Assembly: GCA_015486375.1 (NCBI GenBank)
Contig: WFRR01000099.1
Coordinates: forward strand, 1 to 56,559
DNA: 56,559 nt
Reading direction: 5' to 3'
Source of the DNA: Thiotrichaceae bacterium
Lineage (GTDB): Bacteria > Pseudomonadota > Gammaproteobacteria > Thiotrichales > Thiotrichaceae
Of this stretch, positions 13,815-28,765 are shown piece by piece (within the stretch, counting starts at the first letter, position 1; each line of letters opens with the position of its first letter). Made by a program: the position numbers and the translations under genes. The notes below the pieces were generated by a model. The model was not told the origin of the DNA, did not search any database, and saw only the letters and a program-made list of their open reading frames with translations.

Positions 13815-13870
13815 ATATGGTGGGTCTGGAGGGACTTGAACCCACGACCAATCGATTATGAGTCGATTGC
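13815..13870 (-). repeat. attachment site copy (left), displaced 3' tRNA fragment
   Basis: These 56 bp match 22954-23009 with one difference (T at 13825, C at 22964). They carry the 3' part of the tRNA from the anticodon stem to CCA, but no 5' part follows, so this copy is not a functional gene. The differing base gives A69, which would not pair with C4 of the intact tRNA. This is the chromosomal 3' end pushed away by integration. Confidence 0.85.
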
Positions 13871-14002
13871 GTTTGGTCTTTCTTGGACAAGTATGGATAA
13901 ACAATTACTGTCTAAATGGTTGATTTTTAAATACCTTATTTAAATTAAGGTAAATAGTTTGTCCAACGGAATCCATTGTGTTCTACTCAAAACCACGATA
14001 TT

Positions 14003-14028
14003 AAGTGACTACGAGGGTGACTGTAAAA
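14003..14028 (+). other. candidate integrase arm-type site (left)
   Basis: A 26-bp sequence containing two GTGACT units 12 bp apart (14005 and 14017) recurs with two mismatches at 22869-22894. It lies 133 bp inside the left attachment repeat and upstream of the integrase gene. Paired short direct repeats near both ends are typical of arm sites bound by the N-terminal domain of tyrosine integrases. Assignment is by position and pattern only. Confidence 0.5.
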
Positions 14029-14067
14029 CATTATAATTTGATGTTTAATAATCACTTAGGGTCGATC

Positions 14068-15372
14068 ATGTTTACCATTCACTATCTAAATTCACTTAAA
14101 CCCAAACAGTCTCCTTACCGACAATATGAGAAAGCTTCACGGGTAGGTTTTGGCATACAAGTCTCAGCAAAAGGGGCAAAAACCTTTTTCTATGCTTATA
14201 AAATCAACGGAAAACAACGTTTCATTAAGTTGGGCATATTTGTAGATAAAAGCAATAACAGCATAGGAGGAGTCACCTTAAAAGAAGCGGGTTTACTGTG
14301 GCAAAAATGGCATAAGGTTAGAAATGCGGGTTATGATCCACAAATTATCCACAAGAATGAAATAAGCGCAGCAGAAAAAGCCTATCATCAAGCAGAAGAA
14401 CGAAAAAAAAGACAACAACAGCAAGGCAGTTACCAACAACTCTTAAATGTTTATATTGATTGGCTCAAGCAAAATAAGAAAAGATCTGCAGAAAATGTTC
14501 AGCAAGTCATCAATGCCAATGCTTATAAAGTGATTCATCCTTCTACCAAAGCTAAAGAAGTGAGTACTCGTGATTTAAATGCGACGCTTGCTCTTATGGA
14601 ACAACGCGGTGCAAATATTCTCGCTAATCGACTGCGTTCTTATCTACTCACCGCGTTTACAAAAGGTATGGCATTTGACTTAGGACGCAGCCAAAATAAA
14701 AGCACCCTGCAATTTGGACTCAAACACAATCCCGTGAGAGATGTACCAAAATCCGAGGTTAAAGAAAGAGTCGGTGAACGTTTTTTATCTGAACAGGAAA
14801 TCCATACGCTTTGGTATGGACTAGCGCAAACCCGCATGAGCCCACAAATTATCTGTTTATTAAAACTATTGTTGGTTACAGGACAAAGGGTAGAAGAAGT
14901 CCTTTACCTCAATATCAATGCGATTGATTGGAATACCCAACTATGGGAGTTGGCACACACAAAGTCCAAAAGACCGCATGTTGTTCCATTGCCTACAATT
15001 GCCATCCATCTAATTAATGAACTGCAAGCAGATAAAGACGGTTTTCTATTTATCTCTGCAAAAACAGGCAAGTTCATTCGAGCAGATAGTATTCCTCAAG
15101 CGTGTCAACGCTACTGTACACAAACAGGTTTTAAAAAATTTACCCCACGCAGCTTACGCAGAACATGGAAAACCCTAGTGGGTAAAGCAGGTGTGAGTAA
15201 ATTTGATCGGGATCGTTACCAAAATCATGTCATAAACGATGTCAGTGGTAGACACTATGATCGCTATGATTATCTTGCAGAAAAAAGACAAGTCGCCCAA
15301 GTTTGGAATCAGTATCTGGGCAATATTATATCGAAGAAAAATAAAATACTTGCACCGAATATAGAAAATTAA
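14068..15372 (+). CDS. tyrosine recombinase/integrase of the element
   Basis: From ATG at 14068 this is a 434-residue phage/island-type integrase. An N-terminal DUF4102-like arm-binding region (GIQVSAKGAKTFFYAYKING) is followed by a core-binding domain and a C-terminal catalytic domain. Catalytic residues seen are Arg in VTGQRVEEVL, Lys in HTKSKRPHVV and Arg in SLRRTWKT (the usual His before LRR is Ser here). A C-terminal His/Tyr region reads NHVINDVSGRHYDRYDY. The frame is open from GTG at 14005, but that GTG lies in the 26-bp end repeat, and TAGGG at 14057-14061 fits ATG 14068. It should catalyse integration and excision at the tRNA. Confidence 0.9.
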   Translation: MFTIHYLNSLKPKQSPYRQYEKASRVGFGIQVSAKGAKTFFYAYKINGKQRFIKLGIFVDKSNNSIGGVTLKEAGLLWQKWHKVRNAGYDPQIIHKNEISAAEKAYHQAEERKKRQQQQGSYQQLLNVYIDWLKQNKKRSAENVQQVINANAYKVIHPSTKAKEVSTRDLNATLALMEQRGANILANRLRSYLLTAFTKGMAFDLGRSQNKSTLQFGLKHNPVRDVPKSEVKERVGERFLSEQEIHTLWYGLAQTRMSPQIICLLKLLLVTGQRVEEVLYLNINAIDWNTQLWELAHTKSKRPHVVPLPTIAIHLINELQADKDGFLFISAKTGKFIRADSIPQACQRYCTQTGFKKFTPRSLRRTWKTLVGKAGVSKFDRDRYQNHVINDVSGRHYDRYDYLAEKRQVAQVWNQYLGNIISKKNKILAPNIEN

Positions 15373-15423
15373 GGCTAATCAGGTATTATTGTATTTACAA
15401 AGTCAATACATAGAGTTATAAAT

Positions 15424-15720
15424 ATGGAAATTGAATATACCCATAACAGCATTTGTTTTATCTGGAATGAAGATAAGGCCGAGAAAAATAGGGTCAAACA
15501 TCATGGTATTAGCTTTGAACAAGCGGCTGATGTCTTTTTTGATCCTTTTCTTAAGATAATGGATGCCAGCAGAAATAATGAAATACGGGATGCTGTTATT
15601 GGCATGGATACTCACTGGAAAATTTTGTATGTTGTCCATATCCAAATCGAAGAGGATGAAATTCGTATTATTTCAGCCCGTAAAGCCACTAAAAAAGAGC
15701 AAGATAATTATGAAAATTGA
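15424..15720 (+). CDS. brnT: BrnT-family ribonuclease toxin
   Basis: A 98-residue BrnT-type toxin. The family pattern of FIWNEDKAEKN, then VKHHGISFEQAADVF and a C-terminal RIISARKATKKE is all present. In characterised systems BrnT is a RelE-fold ribonuclease that arrests growth and is neutralised by BrnA, and the complex represses its own promoter. The toxin gene comes first and overlaps the next ORF by 11 nt, the usual brnTA order. It lies right after the integrase gene and may stabilise the element. Confidence 0.88.
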   Translation: MEIEYTHNSICFIWNEDKAEKNRVKHHGISFEQAADVFFDPFLKIMDASRNNEIRDAVIGMDTHWKILYVVHIQIEEDEIRIISARKATKKEQDNYEN

Positions 15721-15994
15721 ACAACTAAAAAAACGATTAGATAAAAATAGACCCATGACCAGTATTACGCTAAGAATGCCTATTGATGTAGTTGAGGATC
15801 TAAAACGCATTGCACCCATATTAGGGTTTTCAGGTTATCAAACACTCCTTAAAGCCTATGTAGGACAAGGATTGCGTAAAGACCTTGAAAAATTAGATAA
15901 CAATAATATTACAGTTTTAATTGCTAGTTTAAAGAAACAAGGTGTTAATGACGATATTATTAATGAAGCATTAGCAGTAGTAACACACACATAA
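15710..15994 (+). CDS. brnA: BrnA-like antitoxin (ribbon-helix-helix)
   Basis: Reading from ATG 15710 gives 94 residues. The segment RPMTSITLRMPIDVVEDLKRIA is a ribbon-helix-helix DNA-binding motif (β-strand then helix), followed by GFSGYQTLLKAYVGQGLRKD. It overlaps brnT by 11 nt. A longer frame from 15563 is open but would run inside brnT, so it is rejected. It should bind BrnT and repress the operon. Sequence similarity to classical BrnA is only general, but position and fold support it. Confidence 0.78.
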   Translation: MKIEQLKKRLDKNRPMTSITLRMPIDVVEDLKRIAPILGFSGYQTLLKAYVGQGLRKDLEKLDNNNITVLIASLKKQGVNDDIINEALAVVTHT

Positions 15995-16019
15995 ATTATA
16001 CGAATACAGCATATACAAC

Positions 16020-17363
16020 ATGAAAATAAATAAAATAGAAATAGAGAACTTCAAACTCTTCAAGGATGCTACATTCAATTTTAATTCAGAATTTAATTTA
16101 TTAGTGGGTATTAATGGTAGTGGTAAAACCTCTTTATTACGGGCAGTTTCAGTAGCGTTAGGGGGGTGGGCAAATGCATATATAAAAAGCCAAGAAAATT
16201 TAAGACCTATTTTAGATGAAGAAATACGAGAAATTCAAATTGATAATCGATTTGATAAAAGTAAAAAAACCTCAATAAAAGCATATGGTAATGAGGTTGT
16301 TATTAATAGGTATAATAATACAGTTAACTCCACTGCAATATGGAGACGTTTTAGAGAAGAAGGAAATGCTGAAACTTTGCAAGATGGTGATATTAAGTAT
16401 GGCAGTTCTAGCTTTTATAATTTAGATACGTTAGGAAATGATATACTTACCTTTGTTGAAAATGGAAATAAGTTTAATTTACCTATTATTGCTATATATG
16501 AATGTGATCGCTTATGGATTCCAAAGAAAAAACCGAATATTACATCAGCTGCAAAAACTCAATATTCACGTTTTGACCCTTATGTCGATTGCTTTCATAC
16601 TGCTTCAGATCATCAAGCAATAGCTGAATGGTTATTAAAACATGAATTAATATCTTTACAGAAAGGAAAAGAAACTGCGGTATTGAAAGTGATTAAAAAA
16701 GCAGCGACGATTGCCTTAGAAAACTGTATAGATATTAAATTCGATATAGGTGAAGGTCGAGTTATCGTTAAATTTGAGAATGATATAAAAATTCCATTTG
16801 AACATTTAAGTGATGGGCAAAGAACGATTCTAGGATTGTTTTGTGATATTGCAAGGCGTACTGCAATATTAAACCCCCATTTATCAGGTGATGCAATTAG
16901 TGTAACTAAAGGTATTGTATTAATAGATGAACTTGATTTACATCTACATCCAAAATGGCAGCGTCGGATTATAGAAGATTTACGTAATGTTTTTCCTAAT
17001 ATTCAATTTATATGTACAACACATTCCCCCTTCTTAATTCAATCCTTAAGAAGTTCTGATGAATTAATTATGCTCGATGGAGAGCCTTTATCAGATTATG
17101 GACATATAGGAATAGAAGAAATTGTTAAAAATATGGGTGTTCAATCTCCAGAAGTCAGTATTCGTTATGAGGATATGAAAGATGCCGCTAAAAGTTTCTT
17201 AGAGTTACTTGATGAATCTAAACTATCACCTCAAGACAAGCAGAAAGAATATAAAAAACAGCTATCTATGTTAATTGCACCTTTTGCAAATAATCCCGCT
17301 TATCAAGCATTTTTAGAAATGAAGTATGTTGCAGAAATGGGAGAAGAACTTGAGACCCATTAG
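16020..17363 (+). CDS. ptuA: Septu defence ATPase PtuA (AAA/SMC-like)
   Basis: A 447-residue ATPase of the ABC/SMC type. Walker A is GINGSGKT at residues 30-37, the signature is LSDGQRTILGLF near residue 263, Walker B is GIVLIDELDLHLHP near 298-311, and the switch His is in CTTHSPFL. The coiled-coil insert is short, as in PtuA of Septu, not the long arm of Rad50. The next gene encodes an HNH nuclease in overlapping frame, the defining Septu pair. In known systems PtuA binds ATP and restrains the nuclease until phage infection lowers the ATP level. No reverse transcriptase is nearby, which argues against a retron. Confidence 0.85.
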   Translation: MKINKIEIENFKLFKDATFNFNSEFNLLVGINGSGKTSLLRAVSVALGGWANAYIKSQENLRPILDEEIREIQIDNRFDKSKKTSIKAYGNEVVINRYNNTVNSTAIWRRFREEGNAETLQDGDIKYGSSSFYNLDTLGNDILTFVENGNKFNLPIIAIYECDRLWIPKKKPNITSAAKTQYSRFDPYVDCFHTASDHQAIAEWLLKHELISLQKGKETAVLKVIKKAATIALENCIDIKFDIGEGRVIVKFENDIKIPFEHLSDGQRTILGLFCDIARRTAILNPHLSGDAISVTKGIVLIDELDLHLHPKWQRRIIEDLRNVFPNIQFICTTHSPFLIQSLRSSDELIMLDGEPLSDYGHIGIEEIVKNMGVQSPEVSIRYEDMKDAAKSFLELLDESKLSPQDKQKEYKKQLSMLIAPFANNPAYQAFLEMKYVAEMGEELETH

Positions 17364-18120
17364 CCGAGGAAACTCTCCTATAGGTGAAGAGGATTATAAA
17401 AATTATCAAGATGCTAAAACAGATTTAATTGATCGAATATCTTCTGGGTGTAGTGAAGAACGACATATTGCATCTTATTGTAGTTATTGTGAACGTAAAA
17501 TTGAGACTAATTTAGCTGTGGAACATATTCAGCCTAAAAAAGGTAAATATGGAAAACCTGAATTAGAAGGTAATTGGCATAATTTTTTACTAGCCTGTGT
17601 TAATTGCAATTCAACAAAAGGGCATAAAGAAGTACGGTTCAATAACTTGTTCTTACCTGATAGAGATAATACTTTTTATGCATTTACTTATACAGCTGAT
17701 GGCAATATTGAACCTTTAAACACGCTATCTGAAAATAATAAATTTAGAGCTAATAATACGCTATCTTTAGTTGGACTCAATAAATGTGTTAGCGAAATGC
17801 ATTCCAAAAGTGGGAAATCAATTGCACAAGATAGAATGACACAACGAATTGAAATTTGGGGCATTGCTGAGACTAGCTTAGATGACTATATTAATAATTT
17901 AGAGAATAAAGTAATAAAAAAATATATCGTTAAACTCATGTTAACTAGCGGTTTTTTCAGTATTTGGATGACTATTTTTAAGGATTATTCAGATATGAAA
18001 ACCTTATTTATTAATGCGATTAGTGGCACTAAAGAGAGTGGATGCTTTGATGAAAGTACAGGGGAAGTCGTATCACCACACCCTAATGATGATGCTTTAG
18101 AGAGTGGTGGTAAAATCTAA
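17350..18120 (+). CDS. ptuB: Septu defence HNH nuclease PtuB
   Basis: A 256-residue HNH endonuclease from TTG 17350, or 264 residues from ATG 17326. I prefer TTG because GGGAG at 17339-17343 sits 6 nt before it and the protein then starts LRPISRGNSP, like family members. Zinc and nuclease residues (numbered from 17326) are C52 and C55 in YCSYCERK, H67 in AVEHIQPKK, N86 in the NFLLAC segment, and C91 and C94 in CVNCNSTKGHK. LPDRDNTFYAFTY is also typical. It overlaps ptuA by 14 nt (38 nt with the ATG). It likely cleaves DNA on activation. Confidence 0.84.
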   Translation: MRPISRGNSPIGEEDYKNYQDAKTDLIDRISSGCSEERHIASYCSYCERKIETNLAVEHIQPKKGKYGKPELEGNWHNFLLACVNCNSTKGHKEVRFNNLFLPDRDNTFYAFTYTADGNIEPLNTLSENNKFRANNTLSLVGLNKCVSEMHSKSGKSIAQDRMTQRIEIWGIAETSLDDYINNLENKVIKKYIVKLMLTSGFFSIWMTIFKDYSDMKTLFINAISGTKESGCFDESTGEVVSPHPNDDALESGGKI

Positions 18121-18139
18121 ATTTACCTTAAGTCTATTA

Positions 18140-18985
18140 TCAGCATATATTGTATGCTTTTAAGTCGATCATTTCTTTATCTCGATCTAAATATTTTTTA
18201 GATGGCAAATGTTTCAATAGAGAATATTTTTCAATTAATGGCTTGAATTTTAAATTTGAAAAGTATATGCAATTATAAAAAATAATTATTAATTCCTGAC
18301 CCGATAGTTGAGCACGAACTATATTAGTATAATGTTTTTTATTTTCAATCTTGGAATTATCAATAAACTTGACTATATGATACAACGACCTAAAGTAATG
18401 ACCAATTTCATTCTCATACTCAGTCCAAAGGTTTTTAAATTTACCATTAATATACATCTTCCTTTCATAATTTTCATCCTGAATATTTTTTTGAAATAAA
18501 GATTCATACTTTGCCCATATAATAGAGAAACAATCTCTTCCAGAGTGTACTTTTAACGCACTCCCACTTCCGCCATGCCTAGTCTGACCTCCAGTCATTA
18601 TGTCAATAGAATTTAAAAGATCATTATGTAATCGTAGCATTTGAAAAAATGTACCTTCAAAATTTTGCAATGCTATTTGTTTATTATGGGCTTGCATTGT
18701 TTCTTTTTGCCCTTGTAGTTCACCTCTAGTCAGCTTTAACTCTTCTCTTTGCAAAGACAGTTCTTCCTTTTGAAGTAATATTGTATAAATTAACCCTGCA
18801 AAAGCTAAACCTGTAAAAAGAGAATTAACTGCCCCAAACATATCACCAAATGTTCCACGATCTCCAAGATTTCCAAGTAAATTAGTAACCTTATTAGCAT
18901 CACCTAAGTCATATAATAAATATCCAGATGTAACCCATACTACAATTACACCTATCACCAAAAATATTAAAAACAAAATGCTCAT
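18140..18985 (-). CDS. putative phage abortive infection protein (PutAbiC type)
   Basis: A 281-residue membrane protein. Two N-terminal transmembrane segments (about residues 2-25 and 49-68) are followed by a coiled coil (LQKEELSLQREELKLTRGEL). The cytosolic domain carries GRDCFSIIWAKYE, the FRSLYHIVKFIDNS motif and IVRAQLSGQELIIIFYNC, the hallmarks of the PutAbiC family. It lies convergent to ptuB, 20 bp away. The AbiC group is associated with abortive infection, and the mechanism is not established. Length is somewhat variable in the family. This looks complete. Confidence 0.8.
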   Translation of the reverse strand: MSILFLIFLVIGVIVVWVTSGYLLYDLGDANKVTNLLGNLGDRGTFGDMFGAVNSLFTGLAFAGLIYTILLQKEELSLQREELKLTRGELQGQKETMQAHNKQIALQNFEGTFFQMLRLHNDLLNSIDIMTGGQTRHGGSGSALKVHSGRDCFSIIWAKYESLFQKNIQDENYERKMYINGKFKNLWTEYENEIGHYFRSLYHIVKFIDNSKIENKKHYTNIVRAQLSGQELIIIFYNCIYFSNLKFKPLIEKYSLLKHLPSKKYLDRDKEMIDLKAYNIC

Positions 18986-19154
18986 ATAATATATTACAAC
19001 CTAATTTAAATTCGAAAAGCACAAAAGATTAGCACAAATATACGATATGAGACATTTTCTTCATAAGGTCTTATTTGATTATAACTCAAGTATTCCTATC
19101 CTCCTTATTGAGCAATTATTCACGAATAACTTGACGAATACTTTCCAGTAAAAT

Positions 19155-19295
19155 CTATTCATTATCAATGATTAAGCTCTTTTTAAGGCGGTTAATTATT
19201 TCAGCATTCATAGATTTATTTTTCTCAGATGAAAGATCGAGAAGAGTTTTATGCAAGGTTTGAGGGATTCTTAGTGTGATACGTTTATATTCCAA
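19155..19295 (-). CDS. Arc-like ribbon-helix-helix protein (small)
   Basis: A 46-residue ORF from TTG at 19293-19295 to TAG at 19155-19157. RITLRIPQTLHKTLLDLS and SMNAEIINRLKKSL match Arc-type repressors (β-strand, two helices). The start is uncertain, and the ORF ends 12 nt after the stop of the remnant upstream, so translation may be coupled. It is one of a run of Arc-like genes. Confidence 0.55.
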   Translation of the reverse strand: MEYKRITLRIPQTLHKTLLDLSSEKNKSMNAEIINRLKKSLIIDNE

Positions 19296-19306
19296 GATTT
19301 TTCTAA

Positions 19307-19462
19307 TTACCTCTGTTGTATATTGAGTTTATGTAGTTCTTGATTCACAATATTTTGTGCAATTCCTTTCATTTCACTCTTTGTAAGCACTTGATTGTTA
19401 TCAGATAATAAACTTTTTTCTAACCTTGATAAAACCTCTTCATGTAAAAGGCGGTTATTTTT
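19307..19462 (-). pseudogene. degenerate Arc-like gene
   Basis: The minus frame ending in TAA at 19307-19309 reads NNRLLHEEVLSRLEKSL, then a linker ending in NQELHKLNIQQR. This is the second half of an Arc-like fold plus the tail found in the neighbouring Arc-like proteins. The N-terminal β-strand is missing, and an in-frame TAA at 19463-19465 cuts it off. No start codon with a ribosome site is seen. It is a remnant. Confidence 0.5.
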
Positions 19463-19479
19463 TTAGCAAAACCCTTCAA

Positions 19480-19728
19480 CTAATTGCAAATTTTTTCAGG
19501 CAAATTGATTGAATATGTATGTTTCGATGCGATAAAACCTTCACTCAGCACTTGGCGTAATTTGGACTCGGTAATCGGAACTTCCTTTTCTCCCAATCCA
19601 ATTAGAAATAGTTCTATTATTTCTGCATTAATGCTTCTTCCACTATCGATTGCAGAGTCTTTAATCTCTCCATAAATATCAGAAGGAATACGTATTTGTG
19701 TTCTAAAAAATTTATCTTGTTTTTTCAT
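19480..19728 (-). CDS. Arc-like ribbon-helix-helix DNA-binding protein
   Basis: From ATG 19728 this is an 82-residue Arc-family protein. FRTQIRIPSDIYGEIKDSA and SINAEIIELFLIGL form the ribbon-helix-helix core, followed by a linker and a 25-residue tail. The longer reading from TTG 19758 lies within the upstream gene and lacks support. It overlaps the end of the upstream Arc-like gene by 17 nt, consistent with coupled translation. A role as transcription regulator of the element is likely, targets unknown. Confidence 0.72.
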   Translation of the reverse strand: MKKQDKFFRTQIRIPSDIYGEIKDSAIDSGRSINAEIIELFLIGLGEKEVPITESKLRQVLSEGFIASKHTYSINLPEKICN

Positions 19729-19918
19729 TAAAAATTCTATTTGCCTCTTCTCGTGCAATTTGTCTAATGTCTTTTTCAGTTAGAACAGGTCGTTCAAAAC
19801 TATTTTTTAGACGAGTAACTATTTCTGCATTCATGCTTATTCCTGCGTGGCTAGAAGCATTTAAGATAAGTTGATGTAAATCTTTGGGGAGTCGTAGAGC
19901 TGTTTTATGGATAGTCAT
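19712..19918 (-). CDS. Arc-like ribbon-helix-helix DNA-binding protein
   Basis: A 68-residue Arc-family protein with KTALRLPKDLHQLILNAS as strand and first helix and GISMNAEIVTRLKNSF as second helix. The tail includes EKDIRQIAREEANRIF, similar in nature to those of its neighbours. It is the first of the minus-strand run and faces a plus-strand Arc-like gene at 20040 across a 121-bp AT-rich intergenic region. It probably represses one or both divergent promoters there. Confidence 0.75.
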   Translation of the reverse strand: MTIHKTALRLPKDLHQLILNASSHAGISMNAEIVTRLKNSFERPVLTEKDIRQIAREEANRIFNEKTR

Positions 19919-20039
19919 ACTTAAATGATAACAGAATGACGTTATTATAAACTATAAACTTTATTTTAATGCTGTATTGACTTTACTGATTAGAAAAAGT
20001 AGTATGAAGTTGTTATGAATTCAGAAAAGTGGTTTTAAT

Positions 20040-20192
20040 ATGAAAGCTATAACTTTTAGAGTCCCAGAAGTATTACGAAACTGGCTCGAAAATCGAGCTA
20101 AAGACAATCATCGTTCTATGAATGGTGAAATGCTGGAATTAATGCAGAGAGCGAAGGAGAGACAAGAAAGAAAACAGATCAATACACAGTAA
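20040..20192 (+). CDS. small Arc-like ribbon-helix-helix protein
   Basis: A 50-residue ORF from ATG 20040 to TAA 20192. AITFRVPEVLRNWLENRAKDN and SMNGEMLELMQRA fit the Arc fold. It is divergent from the minus-strand Arc-like run and precedes the alpA-like and replication genes. It resembles phage-type Arc repressors that set expression of replication and excision genes. The C-terminus is Lys/Arg/Gln-rich and short. Confidence 0.65.
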   Translation: MKAITFRVPEVLRNWLENRAKDNHRSMNGEMLELMQRAKERQERKQINTQ

Positions 20193-20196
20193 AAAA

Positions 20197-20254
20197 CCTC
20201 TAAGAAAATACTTTCCTAGAGGCTGATTAGAAAACAAAGGCAGCAACCTTTGTT
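20197..20254. promoter_or_regulatory. tandem hairpins between Arc-like and alpA-like genes
   Basis: Two hairpins lie in the 109-bp gap. CCTCTA at 20197-20202 pairs with TAGAGG at 20217-20222. AACAAAGG at 20233-20240 pairs with its exact complement at 20247-20254 around a 6-nt loop. They could attenuate read-through from the Arc-like gene into alpA-rep. No long T-tract follows, so termination is uncertain. Confidence 0.4.
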
Positions 20255-20301
20255 CTCTGATTACTAAACAACCACCAACATTAATTAAAGGACATTCAGT
20301 A

Positions 20302-20604
20302 ATGAGTAAGTCTACAATATCGGCTGCACATTCGCAGCCTATTCAGTCAAATATTCGCTATATTTCCACCCCTAATGCAAAAAATATTGTCCATTCTCAG
20401 GATAATCCCCCGCCACAGCATGATCGTTTCTTAAAAATCGCAGTGGTGTTAGATCGGGTCGGCATTGCGAAAAGCACCTTATATCTCTATATCAGTCAAG
20501 GACGTTTTCCCGCTCCAATTAAAATAGGTCGTTCCAGTTATTGGTCTGAAATTACTATTAATGCATGGATGGAAGCCCAAAAAGCAGGCGGTATCCAAGC
20601 ATGA
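20302..20604 (+). CDS. AlpA-family regulator or excisionase
   Basis: A 100-residue protein with an AlpA-type winged-helix core in its second half: LKIAVVLDRVGIAKSTLYLYI, then GRFPAPIKIGRSSYW and NAWMEAQK. The N-terminal 40 residues are low-complexity and poorly conserved. AlpA-like proteins activate integrase genes or act as excisionases in P4-like and satellite elements. Its TGA overlaps the ATG of the replication gene (ATGA at 20601), so both are translated together. It likely controls excision or replication of the element. Confidence 0.82.
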   Translation: MSKSTISAAHSQPIQSNIRYISTPNAKNIVHSQDNPPPQHDRFLKIAVVLDRVGIAKSTLYLYISQGRFPAPIKIGRSSYWSEITINAWMEAQKAGGIQA

Positions 20605-22337
20605 GCCAAGAGTTATATGACTTTAAAAATATCAGCGATGTGCCTGCTAAATCCTTTGTCAATATTCAGGATTATGCCCATATTACAGAAACCTTAAGTG
20701 CTGTTCCGCACACGTTTCATCGTCCCTTATTGGATGAATATCATCACCATTATTCGACCACATCCCGTTATTGTGCCAACCAGTTTTTTCTGTATATTCA
20801 AACCTATGTTAAAGATAAAACTTTTTTAGACCAAAGTAATACAAATTTAAAAAGTAAAGCGAGACGTTATGTCCGTGAGAGTGCTAGAACGCTAAAACAA
20901 GGTGGCATTGCAGCAGGCTTACACTATTTAAATCTAAAAGACATCTCACCGCCCAATGCCACTAATGATCATAGTCTGGCAGCACGTTTAAAGGATGAGC
21001 AATGGTGGATGCCGCAATTAATTAAAAAATATGACCGCCAATATGAACAAACTGCCATTCAACTCGCTTTGGTAAGAACATATAAACAGGTTTATGTCAG
21101 CACCACGACCTTAAATAAAGTGTTAGCCCGTCAAAAACGTTCTCTTGAAATAATGGGGAATATGTTGGCAGTATCCGATACAGGTGAGGAAGTGGAAATG
21201 TTGGATATTCTCAAAGGATCACCTGCCAATCCTGCGGTACGTCGGGCGGAATTAATGAATCGTTTACATGGTTTTGAACAATATGCGGATGCACACCAGC
21301 ATTGTGCTGAATTTTATACCCTCACTGCTCCGTCTAAATATCACGCCAATTCCTCCAAAAGCAATCACTGCACCCCGCGCCAAGTGCAGCAAAATTATTT
21401 TTCGCCTTTATGGGCAAAGATTCGGGCTAAATTAAAATACCAACAGTTGAATATTTACGGCTTTCGTATTACTGAACCGCACGGTGATGCTTGTCCCCAT
21501 TGGCATATCTTATTATTTATGCCTACGGCGCAAGTAGCAAAAGTGCGTGCCATTCTCAAAGATTATGCCTTGCGCGAATCGGGGGATGAAAAAGGCGCGG
21601 CTAACAATCGTTTTGACTTTGAAAGCATTGATAAAAACAAAGGTTCAGCCATTGGCTATATCGCCAAATACATTAGTAAAAATGTCGATGGTTTTGGGAT
21701 GGAATTAGCGTGTGAAGATGAAACAGGTTTAGCCATCAGTGAATCCGCGCAACGGGTCAGAGCATGGGCTTCGGTGTGGGGTATTCGTCAATTTCAACAA
21801 ATTGGCGGCAGTTCCATTACGGTATGGCGGGAATTACGCCGTTTAGAAGGAGAACATGCTGATCCTACCATTGAAGCGGCACGACAAGCCGCTGATAAAG
21901 GCGATTGGAAAGCCTATCTTGAAACGCAGGGTGGAACAGATACCTTACGCAAAGATCAGCTTATCAGCCCCTATCGTTGTTATCGTTATAATCCTGCAAC
22001 AGGCGAAATAGAAACCAATCAATACGGTGAATGGGTGGATCATATTAAAGGTATTATGACCACAGGCATCGTGGTTGAAACCCGTCTAAAACAGTGGGTA
22101 ATTCAGCGCAAACCAGAAGATGCAACAACAGAAAATAGCCCACTCGATAATACGGATTCTGATAAAGCGACGGCTTTGGCTTTTGCTCTTCCTTGGAGTT
22201 CTGTAAATAACTGTAGAAATCCTCAATCTCAGCCGATCCAAAAAAGCAATTTTTTAGCTAAAAAACCTGAAATTGAGGATAAAAAACTCTTCCAAACAGG
22301 TGAAAAATTCGTAAAAAACACTCCTAAAAAAGTTTAA
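20601..22337 (+). CDS. rolling-circle replication endonuclease (phage GpA-like)
   Basis: From ATG 20601 the protein has 578 residues. The frame is open from 20565, but the ATGA overlap with the alpA-like gene supports 20601. The HUH motif is in CPHWHILLF near residue 300. The paired catalytic tyrosine region GYIAKYISKNVDG lies near residues 352-364, as in P2 gene A-type replication proteins. The C-terminal 100 residues are variable and Lys/Asn-rich. It should nick the element origin and start rolling-circle replication. It has no capsid genes beside it, so the element may depend on another phage or replicate only on excision. Confidence 0.83.
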   Translation: MSQELYDFKNISDVPAKSFVNIQDYAHITETLSAVPHTFHRPLLDEYHHHYSTTSRYCANQFFLYIQTYVKDKTFLDQSNTNLKSKARRYVRESARTLKQGGIAAGLHYLNLKDISPPNATNDHSLAARLKDEQWWMPQLIKKYDRQYEQTAIQLALVRTYKQVYVSTTTLNKVLARQKRSLEIMGNMLAVSDTGEEVEMLDILKGSPANPAVRRAELMNRLHGFEQYADAHQHCAEFYTLTAPSKYHANSSKSNHCTPRQVQQNYFSPLWAKIRAKLKYQQLNIYGFRITEPHGDACPHWHILLFMPTAQVAKVRAILKDYALRESGDEKGAANNRFDFESIDKNKGSAIGYIAKYISKNVDGFGMELACEDETGLAISESAQRVRAWASVWGIRQFQQIGGSSITVWRELRRLEGEHADPTIEAARQAADKGDWKAYLETQGGTDTLRKDQLISPYRCYRYNPATGEIETNQYGEWVDHIKGIMTTGIVVETRLKQWVIQRKPEDATTENSPLDNTDSDKATALAFALPWSSVNNCRNPQSQPIQKSNFLAKKPEIEDKKLFQTGEKFVKNTPKKV

Positions 22338-22912
22338 AATGCCTTTAGATGGATCAATCTGTCCAAAATTCACCAAAAACCCCTTAATTGATTATTTATT
22401 GTTCATATTTTGATATTTTGGGGATTTAAATCTAGGAAATAACGACTACGCAAAATCCCATCGCTTCAACCCCTTTAAACACAGCTTCTAAAGTCATCTA
22501 AAAAAATCCAAAATTTAAGCGCGGTTTAGCTAAATACATCCGGTCATAATGGATGTATTCCGTCAATGCTGGCTAGTTTGTACTCATACAGGCAACTTAA
22601 CTCATGCAACGATTAGATACTGAATAATGATTTCTATACAAGCTCAAGCAAACTAGACACCGTAGGGAAGCATTGTGACCCCCATCTAAGCTAAGTGACC
22701 AACGGGAACGCCTTCGTTGTATTAATTACGGGGCAATTTTCTTTTAACGCTAGTCATGGGGATGAAGAAGAGAGCGAATGCGAAAGCCTGAATCCCCTGC
22801 CCTTTGGCGAAAAATCCTGCTGATAAGCATCTGCGAAGCATAACACTGCATATTGAAGCGTTAAAATGAAGTGACTACAAGGGTGACTATAAAAAAGGGA
22901 AAACCTAAAAAG
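22338..22912. other. non-coding right end of the element with hairpins
   Basis: No convincing ORF is seen in these 575 bp. They hold a 9-bp perfect hairpin (22533-22541 with 22551-22559), an 8-bp inverted pair 68 bp apart (CTAGTTTG at 22573-22580 and CAAACTAG at 22649-22656), and a GGGGAT...ATCCCC stem around 22757-22797 enclosing a purine-rich GCGAATGCGAAAGC loop. The right 26-bp arm-like repeat is also here. It may contain the replication origin or a structured RNA. I do not recognise the latter. Confidence 0.5.
22869..22894 (+). other. candidate integrase arm-type site (right)
   Basis: This 26-bp sequence matches 14003-14028 with two mismatches and has the same two GTGACT units 12 bp apart. 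It lies 60 bp inside the right attachment repeat, in the same orientation as the left copy. Position and repeat structure suggest an integrase or excisionase binding site. Confidence 0.5.
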
Positions 22913-22915
22913 AAA

Positions 22916-22948
22916 AAAGGCTTAGCATGAAAAACACGCTAAGCCTTT
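22916..22948. terminator. bidirectional intrinsic terminator supplied by the element
   Basis: An 11-bp perfect stem (AAAGGCTTAGC at 22916-22926, complement at 22938-22948) with an 11-nt loop. On the minus strand it is followed by a T-tract, so it should terminate the tRNA transcript. On the plus strand TTTATTTTA follows. It replaces the displaced chromosomal terminator near 13760. Confidence 0.75.
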
Positions 22949-22953
22949 ATTTT

Positions 22954-23009
22954 ATATGGTGGGCCTGGAGGGACTTGAACCCACGACCAATCGATTATGA
23001 GTCGATTGC
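22954..23009 (-). repeat. attachment site copy (right), inside the intact tRNA
   Basis: This 56-bp block matches 13815-13870 with one difference. It covers the tRNA 3' half from the anticodon stem through CCA. It pairs fully with the 5' acceptor strand, so the element restores a complete tRNA gene on integration. Confidence 0.85.
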
Positions 23010-23033
23010 TCTAACCAGCTGAGCTACAGGCCC
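22957..23033 (-). tRNA. tRNA with CAT anticodon, tRNA-Ile2 (lysidine) type
   Basis: A complete 77-nt cloverleaf on the minus strand. The 7-bp acceptor stem is GGGCCTG/CAGGCCC, then come a TAGCTCAGCTGGTTAGAG D-arm, an anticodon loop CTCATAA, and a T-arm with GGTTCAAGTCC and an encoded CCA end. The anticodon CAT could mean Met or the lysidine-modified Ile2. The ACTCATAATCG and TTGGTCG segments match Ile2 genes such as E. coli ileX better than elongator Met. It is the integration target of the element. Confidence 0.9.
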
Positions 23034-28381: not shown

Positions 28382-28765
28382 TTAGGATTTGGATGAAAAA
28401 TCTAGGCAGACCGAGTTAATGCAATAGCGTAAACCCGAGGGTTGTGGACCATCATTAAACACATGCCCTAAATGCGCATCACATTGCTGACAACGTATTT
28501 CTGTTCTTAGCATTCCATGACGACTATCTGAGATTTCTTTAATTGCTGCATTATCAGCAATTTGCCAATAACTCGGCCAACCACTGCCTGAATCATATTT
28601 GTGTTCAGAACTAAATAATACTGCATTACAACCAATACAATGGTAGTCACCTTTTTCATCGTGCTGATAATATTTTCCGCTAAAAGGGCGTTCTGTGCCA
28701 TCTTGGCGGCTAACTTGATACGCTTCTTTAGAAAGTTGCTGTTGCCATTCTTTATCCGTTTTCAT
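28382..28765 (-). CDS. msrB: peptide-methionine (R)-S-oxide reductase
   Basis: A 127-residue MsrB that reduces methionine-R-sulfoxide in proteins. Zinc ligands are in CIGCNAVLF and [10 protein letters not shown]. The substrate-binding [10 protein letters not shown] is present, and the catalytic Cys is in LRYCINSVC. It overlaps the upstream phosphatase-family gene by 14 nt. The gene order phosphatase-msrB-murI suggests one transcript. Confidence 0.95.

Follow-up and report, generated by a model that had tools for sequence, protein, structure and literature searches.

The window, the whole stretch of 56,559 nucleotides analysed here, carries at 13815-23009 an island with three probable anti-phage modules. 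It is very probably an intact integrative mobile element, which would excise, replicate by the rolling-circle mode and spread defence genes, probably as a phage satellite. A preceding interpretation of the letters alone (the sequence-only reading) had proposed a single mobile unit that carries defence genes and encodes a rolling-circle replicase of its own. This proposal is now well supported by 16 further loci, a P2-type replication origin, a circular sister element and an unoccupied site in a congener. The layout recurs in at least 16 other genomes, which suggests an overlooked family of small elements that carry defence genes and probably depend on phages. Published satellite models seek primases, capsid-remodelling or capsid genes and would miss islands with a P2-type HUH replication protein (Rep). 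If the family moves via helper phages, it would be a common vehicle by which CBASS, Lamassu, Septu and restriction systems pass from one proteobacterial lineage to another. Its 24-bp origin is a simple, searchable signature.

Boundaries, target tRNA and gene content

The island resides in a MAG of 2.67 Mb, and the closest relatives of this genome are Thiotrichaceae. Gene families were assigned with Pfam, PADLOC and PHROGs, and the domain scan covered the ten main ORFs of the island. Its features are as follows.

13815-13870, no strand: distal attachment repeat, a displaced copy of the tRNA-Ile2 3' part (55/56 identity to 22954-23009)
14007-14028, plus: 22-bp repeat, left copy, candidate integrase arm-type site (20/22 identity to 22873-22894)
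14071-15372, plus: tyrosine integrase, pointing inward (PF00589 6e-15; PHROG 1 1e-40)
15424-15720, plus: BrnT-type ribonuclease toxin (PF04365 9e-24)
15710-15994, plus: BrnA/CopG-like antitoxin, weak match (PF14384 E 0.016, under the Pfam cut-off)
16020-17363, plus: PtuA, Septu ATPase (PADLOC PDLC00278 2e-124, whole protein)
17326-18120, plus: PtuB, Septu HNH nuclease (PADLOC PDLC00315 4e-78; PF01844 2e-7)
18140-18985, minus: putAbiC/AbiP-like membrane protein, candidate abortive-infection gene (PF16872 9e-25; PADLOC AbiP 1e-16)
19155-19295, minus: short Arc-like ORF with TTG start (phmmer to Arc2 7e-7)
19480-19758, minus: Arc-like regulator (PF03869 7e-5)
19712-19918, minus: Arc-like regulator (PF03869 6e-6)
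20040-20192, plus: Arc-like regulator (homologues 5' of Rep in Thiotrichaceae L043, L046, L048 and L056)
20302-20604, plus: AlpA-like regulator/excisionase (PF05930 9e-8; PHROG 66 excisionase 1e-9)
20601-22337, plus: P2 gpA-type HUH replication protein (PF05840 1e-76; PHROG 91 3e-163)
22192-22215, plus: P2/186-type double-strand replication origin within rep (identical to the family motif, with 0 chance occurrences expected)
22647-22840, plus: conserved noncoding element at the att-proximal end (five copies in the genome)
22873-22894, plus: 22-bp repeat, right copy, candidate integrase arm-type site (20/22 identity to 14007-14028)
22954-23009, no strand: proximal attachment repeat, 3' part of the functional tRNA
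22957-23033, minus: tRNA-Ile2 (CAU), integration target (Rfam RF00005 and sequence reading)

Repeat comparison confirmed the 9.1-kb unit that the sequence-only reading had placed between two 56-bp repeats at tRNA-Ile2: the copies at 13815-13870 and 22954-23009 are identical at 55 of 56 positions, with a spacing of 9,139 bp, and the right copy is part of an intact tRNA. The anticodon arm of this tRNA, GACTCATAATC, reads as tRNA-Ile2, and 73 of its 77 positions are identical to the tRNA of a congener. As the tRNA lies on the minus strand, the Rep-side end of the element provides the functional 3' part and the copy on the rnfC side is the displaced one. The single mismatch of the distal repeat concerns an acceptor stem position, which would no longer matter in a displaced copy. 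The attachment site of phage 186 (L135, 20985-21030) comprises the same part of tRNA-Ile2, from the anticodon loop to the 3' end.

Concerning the unoccupied site, a CAU tRNA follows rpoD in those Thiotrichaceae genomes whose rpoD locus was retrieved, and the other retrieved loci have neither the window Rep nor the window integrase beyond rpoD-tRNA (up to about 1.4 kb downstream). In congener G001, tRNA-Ile2 directly after rpoD is unoccupied and an ordinary gene comes next. An empty site had been anticipated with rnfC directly beside the tRNA. The site itself is there; the rnfC neighbourhood is not, neither in the congener nor within about 1.4 kb downstream in the relatives. The rnfC of the congener is on a different contig from rpoD-tRNA, so synteny past the tRNA is not conserved.

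The domain assignments agree with the sequence-only reading as to the integrase, PtuA/PtuB, the PutAbiC-type protein, the Arc-like and AlpA-like regulators and the GpA-like HUH protein. From the suggested BrnT/BrnA pair, BrnT is clear. The BrnA-like ORF overlaps brnT by 11 nt and has the size and downstream position of BrnA, with a weak match below the cut-off. The integrase had been given a GTG start at 14005; ATG 14071 is the probable start instead. This integrase clusters with the integrases of the 16 other islands, and it shows no match to the phage 186 integrase. The PADLOC matches, PtuA ATPase followed by PtuB HNH nuclease, make this a type I Septu system. There are at least four Arc-like ORFs. 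Within the Arc cluster (19140-19460), a truncated Arc C-terminal half is found just upstream of the extra short ORF at 19155-19295; both are signs of tandem duplication and decay. The GC content of the cargo block 15424-18985 (31%) is below that of int (39%) and alpA-rep (41%), and this base composition suggests that the cargo was gained separately.

As the sequence-only reading had stated, no capsid or conjugation genes were found in the island. Among the ten main ORFs, Pfam revealed no domain of a capsid, portal, terminase, tail, primase, relaxase or coupling protein, and the structural proteins of phage 186 had no phmmer match within the element.

Replication origin and island-end sequences

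Rep matches PHROG 91, annotated as 'nicking at origin of replication', and its candidate catalytic tyrosines lie in GYIAKY. The longest rep ORF begins at 20565, but the start is probably ATG 20601, which gives a 4-nt overlap with the AlpA stop. The origin CTTGGAGTTCTGTAAATAACTGTA at 22192-22215 is unique within the window, and 100 shuffled sequences did not contain it. Phage 186 carries the same motif, CTCGGAGTTCTGTCAATAACTGTA, at 28572-28595, on its annotated rep_origin (28576). The motif is present in the window and in all 16 comparable islands. Across relatives it falls in three different reading frames and in some (L066, L106) it follows the rep stop codon; hence it is conserved as DNA and not as protein. 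Of the new findings, the motif speaks most strongly for rolling-circle replication of the island. In a tree of 89 Reps, a single fully supported clade unites those of P2 prophages, and the island Reps lie outside it. The window Rep groups with the Rep of the circular sister contig C136 and two Reps from one congener MAG (support 100).

Further sequences mark the island ends. One copy of the 22-bp repeat is found just inside either end, with 0 expected by chance. After circularisation they would lie on either side of the joined core, at distances of 60 and 137 bp, like integrase arm sites. The 194-bp noncoding element has four further copies in the same genome (contigs C136, C163, C109 and C87), 75-88% identical pairwise; a search of 62 further genomes from the family (E 1e-5) found none. 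For three copies, the nearby 3' end of a tRNA (Ile2, Thr or Ser) is 110-300 bp away. An element of Thiothrix eikelboomii has a weaker 66-bp match, about 250 bp from a tRNA-like repeat fragment. Position and conservation suggest that the 194-bp element may be a cis signal, either a packaging site or a second-strand start; it may also be a small RNA.

Searches for a known identity of the 194-bp element gave no Rfam match at gathering scores, and covariation was weak (2 of 38 pairs changed on both sides). As a cos site of a known phage it had no match in phages or IMG/VR at the sensitivity used. A solo copy (L041:1174-1367) lies directly 5' of a brnT-like gene with neither Rep nor tRNA nearby, perhaps a remnant island.

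Related islands in the same genome and in other bacteria

Contig C136 of the same MAG (L006, G000:C136) measures 9,327 bp and has exactly identical 151-bp ends within rep. Through this overlap it assembled as a closed 9,176-bp circle. It encodes Rep (60% identical to the window Rep over the best segment), AlpA, a Fis-like protein, an integrase and two membrane proteins, and carries a DUF4214/cadherin/Excalibur-domain protein in place of defence genes. The circular contig could also reflect an array of tandem copies, or a plasmid that was binned into the MAG; no convincing partner for a chromosomal attB was found in the MAG. Contigs C117 and C163, joined by a 50-bp overlap, represent a third element that ends at tRNA-Thr.

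An alignment of Rep was searched against 84,980 species genomes, and the best 80 loci were examined. Among these, at least 16 other islands in Proteobacteria have the same layout: a tRNA 3' end is duplicated exactly over 24-58 bp, an inward-pointing integrase follows 190-410 bp inside it, Rep is on the same strand, and beyond Rep comes the intact tRNA on the opposite strand. They span 6.5-11.7 kb, and their hosts include Nitrosomonas, Nitrosovibrio, Rheinheimera, Methylotenera and Zhongshania. P2-type structural genes had no match in the 16 islands. By all-against-all comparison the integrases form a single family over the 17 islands including the window, and so do the Reps. A small HTH_17 protein precedes Rep in 15 islands, and AlpA has the same position in the window. 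Targets of the 16 islands include tRNA-Thr, Asn, Lys, Arg, Ala and Leu, and two (L089, L106) use tRNA-Ile2. The position of the cargo differs, which counts against the favoured reading: in sister islands it mostly lies between Rep and tRNA, in the window between int and AlpA.

The genes past Rep vary between islands. PADLOC identified type II CBASS (L083), TRIP13-TIR CBASS (L068), Lamassu (L076), type IIG restriction-modification with PDC-S21 (L106), NsnA/PD-T4-2 (L066), a DNA methyltransferase (L088), TIR-TM (L093) and PD-Lambda-2 (L117), and had no match in the other islands tested. Recognisable defence cargo is present in at least half of the 16. The family consists of tRNA-integrated islands which share the integrase, an HTH/AlpA-type gene and the GPA Rep with its origin, and whose exchangeable cargo is often defence.

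Relatives with capsid genes exist in the same bacterial family. In Thiothrix lacustris (L061:1350-14749), tRNA-Leu-like repeats identical at 73 of 74 positions lie about 13.3 kb apart. This island encodes an integrase, P2-type scaffold/protease (PHROG 73), capsid (PHROG 70) and small terminase (PHROG 74), a HTH protein at the AlpA position, Rep and membrane proteins; compared with phage 186, it gave no match to portal, large terminase or tail. Islands of Thiothrix sp. UBA5583 and Thiofilum flexile resemble it. The capsid-bearing Thiothrix/Thiofilum islands, with boundaries established for L061, are possibly a new type of capsid-forming satellite.

Several observations accompany these comparisons. 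In four Thiothrix/Thiofilum loci (L059, L060, L051, L053) a GPA Rep has P2-type capsid, scaffold and small-terminase genes in its vicinity, with no portal, large terminase or tail match in the examined stretch. At L006:2007-3774, L040:544-2368, L046:4772-6626 and L061:11862-14071, the genes after Rep encode a pair of membrane proteins, one of about 110 aa and one of 490-620 aa; those scanned had no significant Pfam or PHROGs match. At L046:8203-11156 and L040:6293-7759 a related membrane-protein module stands beside a replication protein that by eye looks like phage O-type, which suggests swapping of replication genes. A scan of viral contigs for capsid-free integrated islands returned mainly P2 phages or fragments. 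Viral contigs L193, L221 and L232 have identical ends (61-127 bp), a GPA Rep and a P2-type origin, and neither a related integrase nor P2 structural genes.

Proposed life cycle and comparison with known systems

We propose that the integrase, probably with AlpA as excisionase, would recombine the tRNA-Ile2 repeats to a 9.1-kb circle. Judging from its family and the origin, Rep would nick at 22192-22215 and start rolling-circle replication with host enzymes. The Arc-like and AlpA proteins may hold the element silent until induction. Meanwhile Septu, BrnTA and the putAbiC protein, by analogy with their families, would guard host and element from phages. Concerning cell-to-cell spread, we lean slightly towards the view that Rep makes concatemers which an infecting phage packages into its particles, as happens with PICMI satellites. 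This route is favoured since PICMI with an equally small gene set use it (PMC10803314) and since relatives carry capsid and small-terminase genes. The term 'satellite-type' of the sequence-only reading, understood as helper-packaged, is plausible. No packaging genes or known phage cos/pac sites were found for the island, and searches of the MAG for a helper prophage found neither a P2 capsid nor a terminase; the sole weak terminase match is a RecD-like helicase. Tentatively, and with slightly less than even confidence, we suggest a distinct, widespread satellite class, defined by integrase, AlpA-type HTH protein and P2-type gpA Rep with its own origin, which would occupy many tRNA genes of beta- and gammaproteobacteria. 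It would comprise a capsid-free defence branch and a branch with P2-type capsid, scaffold and small terminase, with the 194-bp element as cis signal (packaging or second-strand start) in the present island.

An island that lacks packaging genes might instead be mobilised by conjugation like an IME, its HUH Rep doubling as relaxase for a conjugative element in the same cell. There are other families of rolling-circle Reps with a relationship to relaxases (MOBT, as cited by PMC11389934). We regard this as unlikely, because Rep sides with phage P2 gpA and bears the P2 phage origin, and because the ten scanned ORFs have no relaxase or coupling-protein domain. The P2-type gpA and origin, and the shared use of the tRNA-Ile2 gene with phage 186, would also fit decay of a P2-like prophage, with loss of the virion genes and acquisition of defence genes. 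The separate, fully supported clade of P2-type prophage Reps, the clustering of the integrase with those of the islands while the 186 integrase is unmatched, and above all the recurrence of the compact layout with intact genes in many genera largely refute this reading, which we consider very improbable.

That the island is an immobile defence island with mere remnants of mobility genes is likewise improbable. The mismatch in the distal repeat and the partly broken Arc cluster could be read in this way, but integrase, AlpA and Rep ORFs are full-length, the origin matches perfectly and both ends retain their copy of the 22-bp pair. Finally, the recurring family, window included, could consist of tailless (corticovirus-like) or filamentous prophages. 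The small gpA-type viral contigs mentioned above would be in line with this, as would the defence genes in small tailless Vibrio prophages (PMC11630473). However, families could be assigned to the main ORFs of the element, with no resemblance to capsid, packaging ATPase or Zot-type proteins; the chance of this explanation is minimal.

Among known systems, the PICMI satellites of Vibrionaceae are characterised by excision upon phage infection and by packaging into the phage's particles, and their concatemers are consistent with plasmid-like rolling-circle replication (PMC10803314). The present island is similarly small, has integrase and AlpA co-located and lacks capsid-remodelling genes (PMC10803314). 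In contrast, PICMI require a primase (DUF3987/DUF5906), for which the ten main ORFs gave no match and in place of which the island has the P2-type HUH Rep and origin; moreover, PICMI integrate downstream of host fis and not in tRNA-Ile2. P4-like satellites share integrase, AlpA, defence genes and the absence of tail genes (PMC8628076), whereas the island has no alpha primase/helicase, psu, delta or epsilon. P4-like elements are defined by alpha, psu, sid, delta and epsilon with at most two components missing; PF03288, PF07455, PF04606 and PF10554, a profile set without sid, had no match in the ten main ORFs. The island falls outside the published definitions of both PICMI and P4. With P2 and 186 it shares the Rep family, a near-identical origin and, for 186, the tRNA-Ile2 site, but it is devoid of virion, lysis and P2 regulatory genes, its integrase is another one and the island Reps lie outside the P2-phage clade.

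Like cfPICI (PMC11389934), the related Thiothrix/Thiofilum islands have capsid, scaffold and small terminase, but these relatives use P2-type gpN/gpO/gpM and a GPA Rep, and the window island itself is capsid-free. Islands transduced by jumbo phages resemble ours in that they have a tyrosine integrase and defence cargo, are bounded by direct repeats at an RNA gene and lack transfer genes, but they occupy tmRNA, and their abstract does not mention a P2-type Rep and origin (PMC12595487). Marine VEIMEs may overlap with gpA-Rep islands. Tested as a tRNA-gene integrative element, the island has tRNA 3' repeats at both ends, an internal integrase and an unoccupied site in a relative. Its Septu system is an ordinary type I member, with PtuA and PtuB intact and adjacent; the carrier alone is unusual. 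The open-access literature yielded PICMI, P4, cfPICI and jumbo-phage-borne islands, and no description of a family defined by a P2-type gpA Rep. New here are the origin match, the 16 islands of the same order, the circular sister, the unoccupied congener site, the 194-bp element and the capsid-bearing Thiothrix/Thiofilum relatives.
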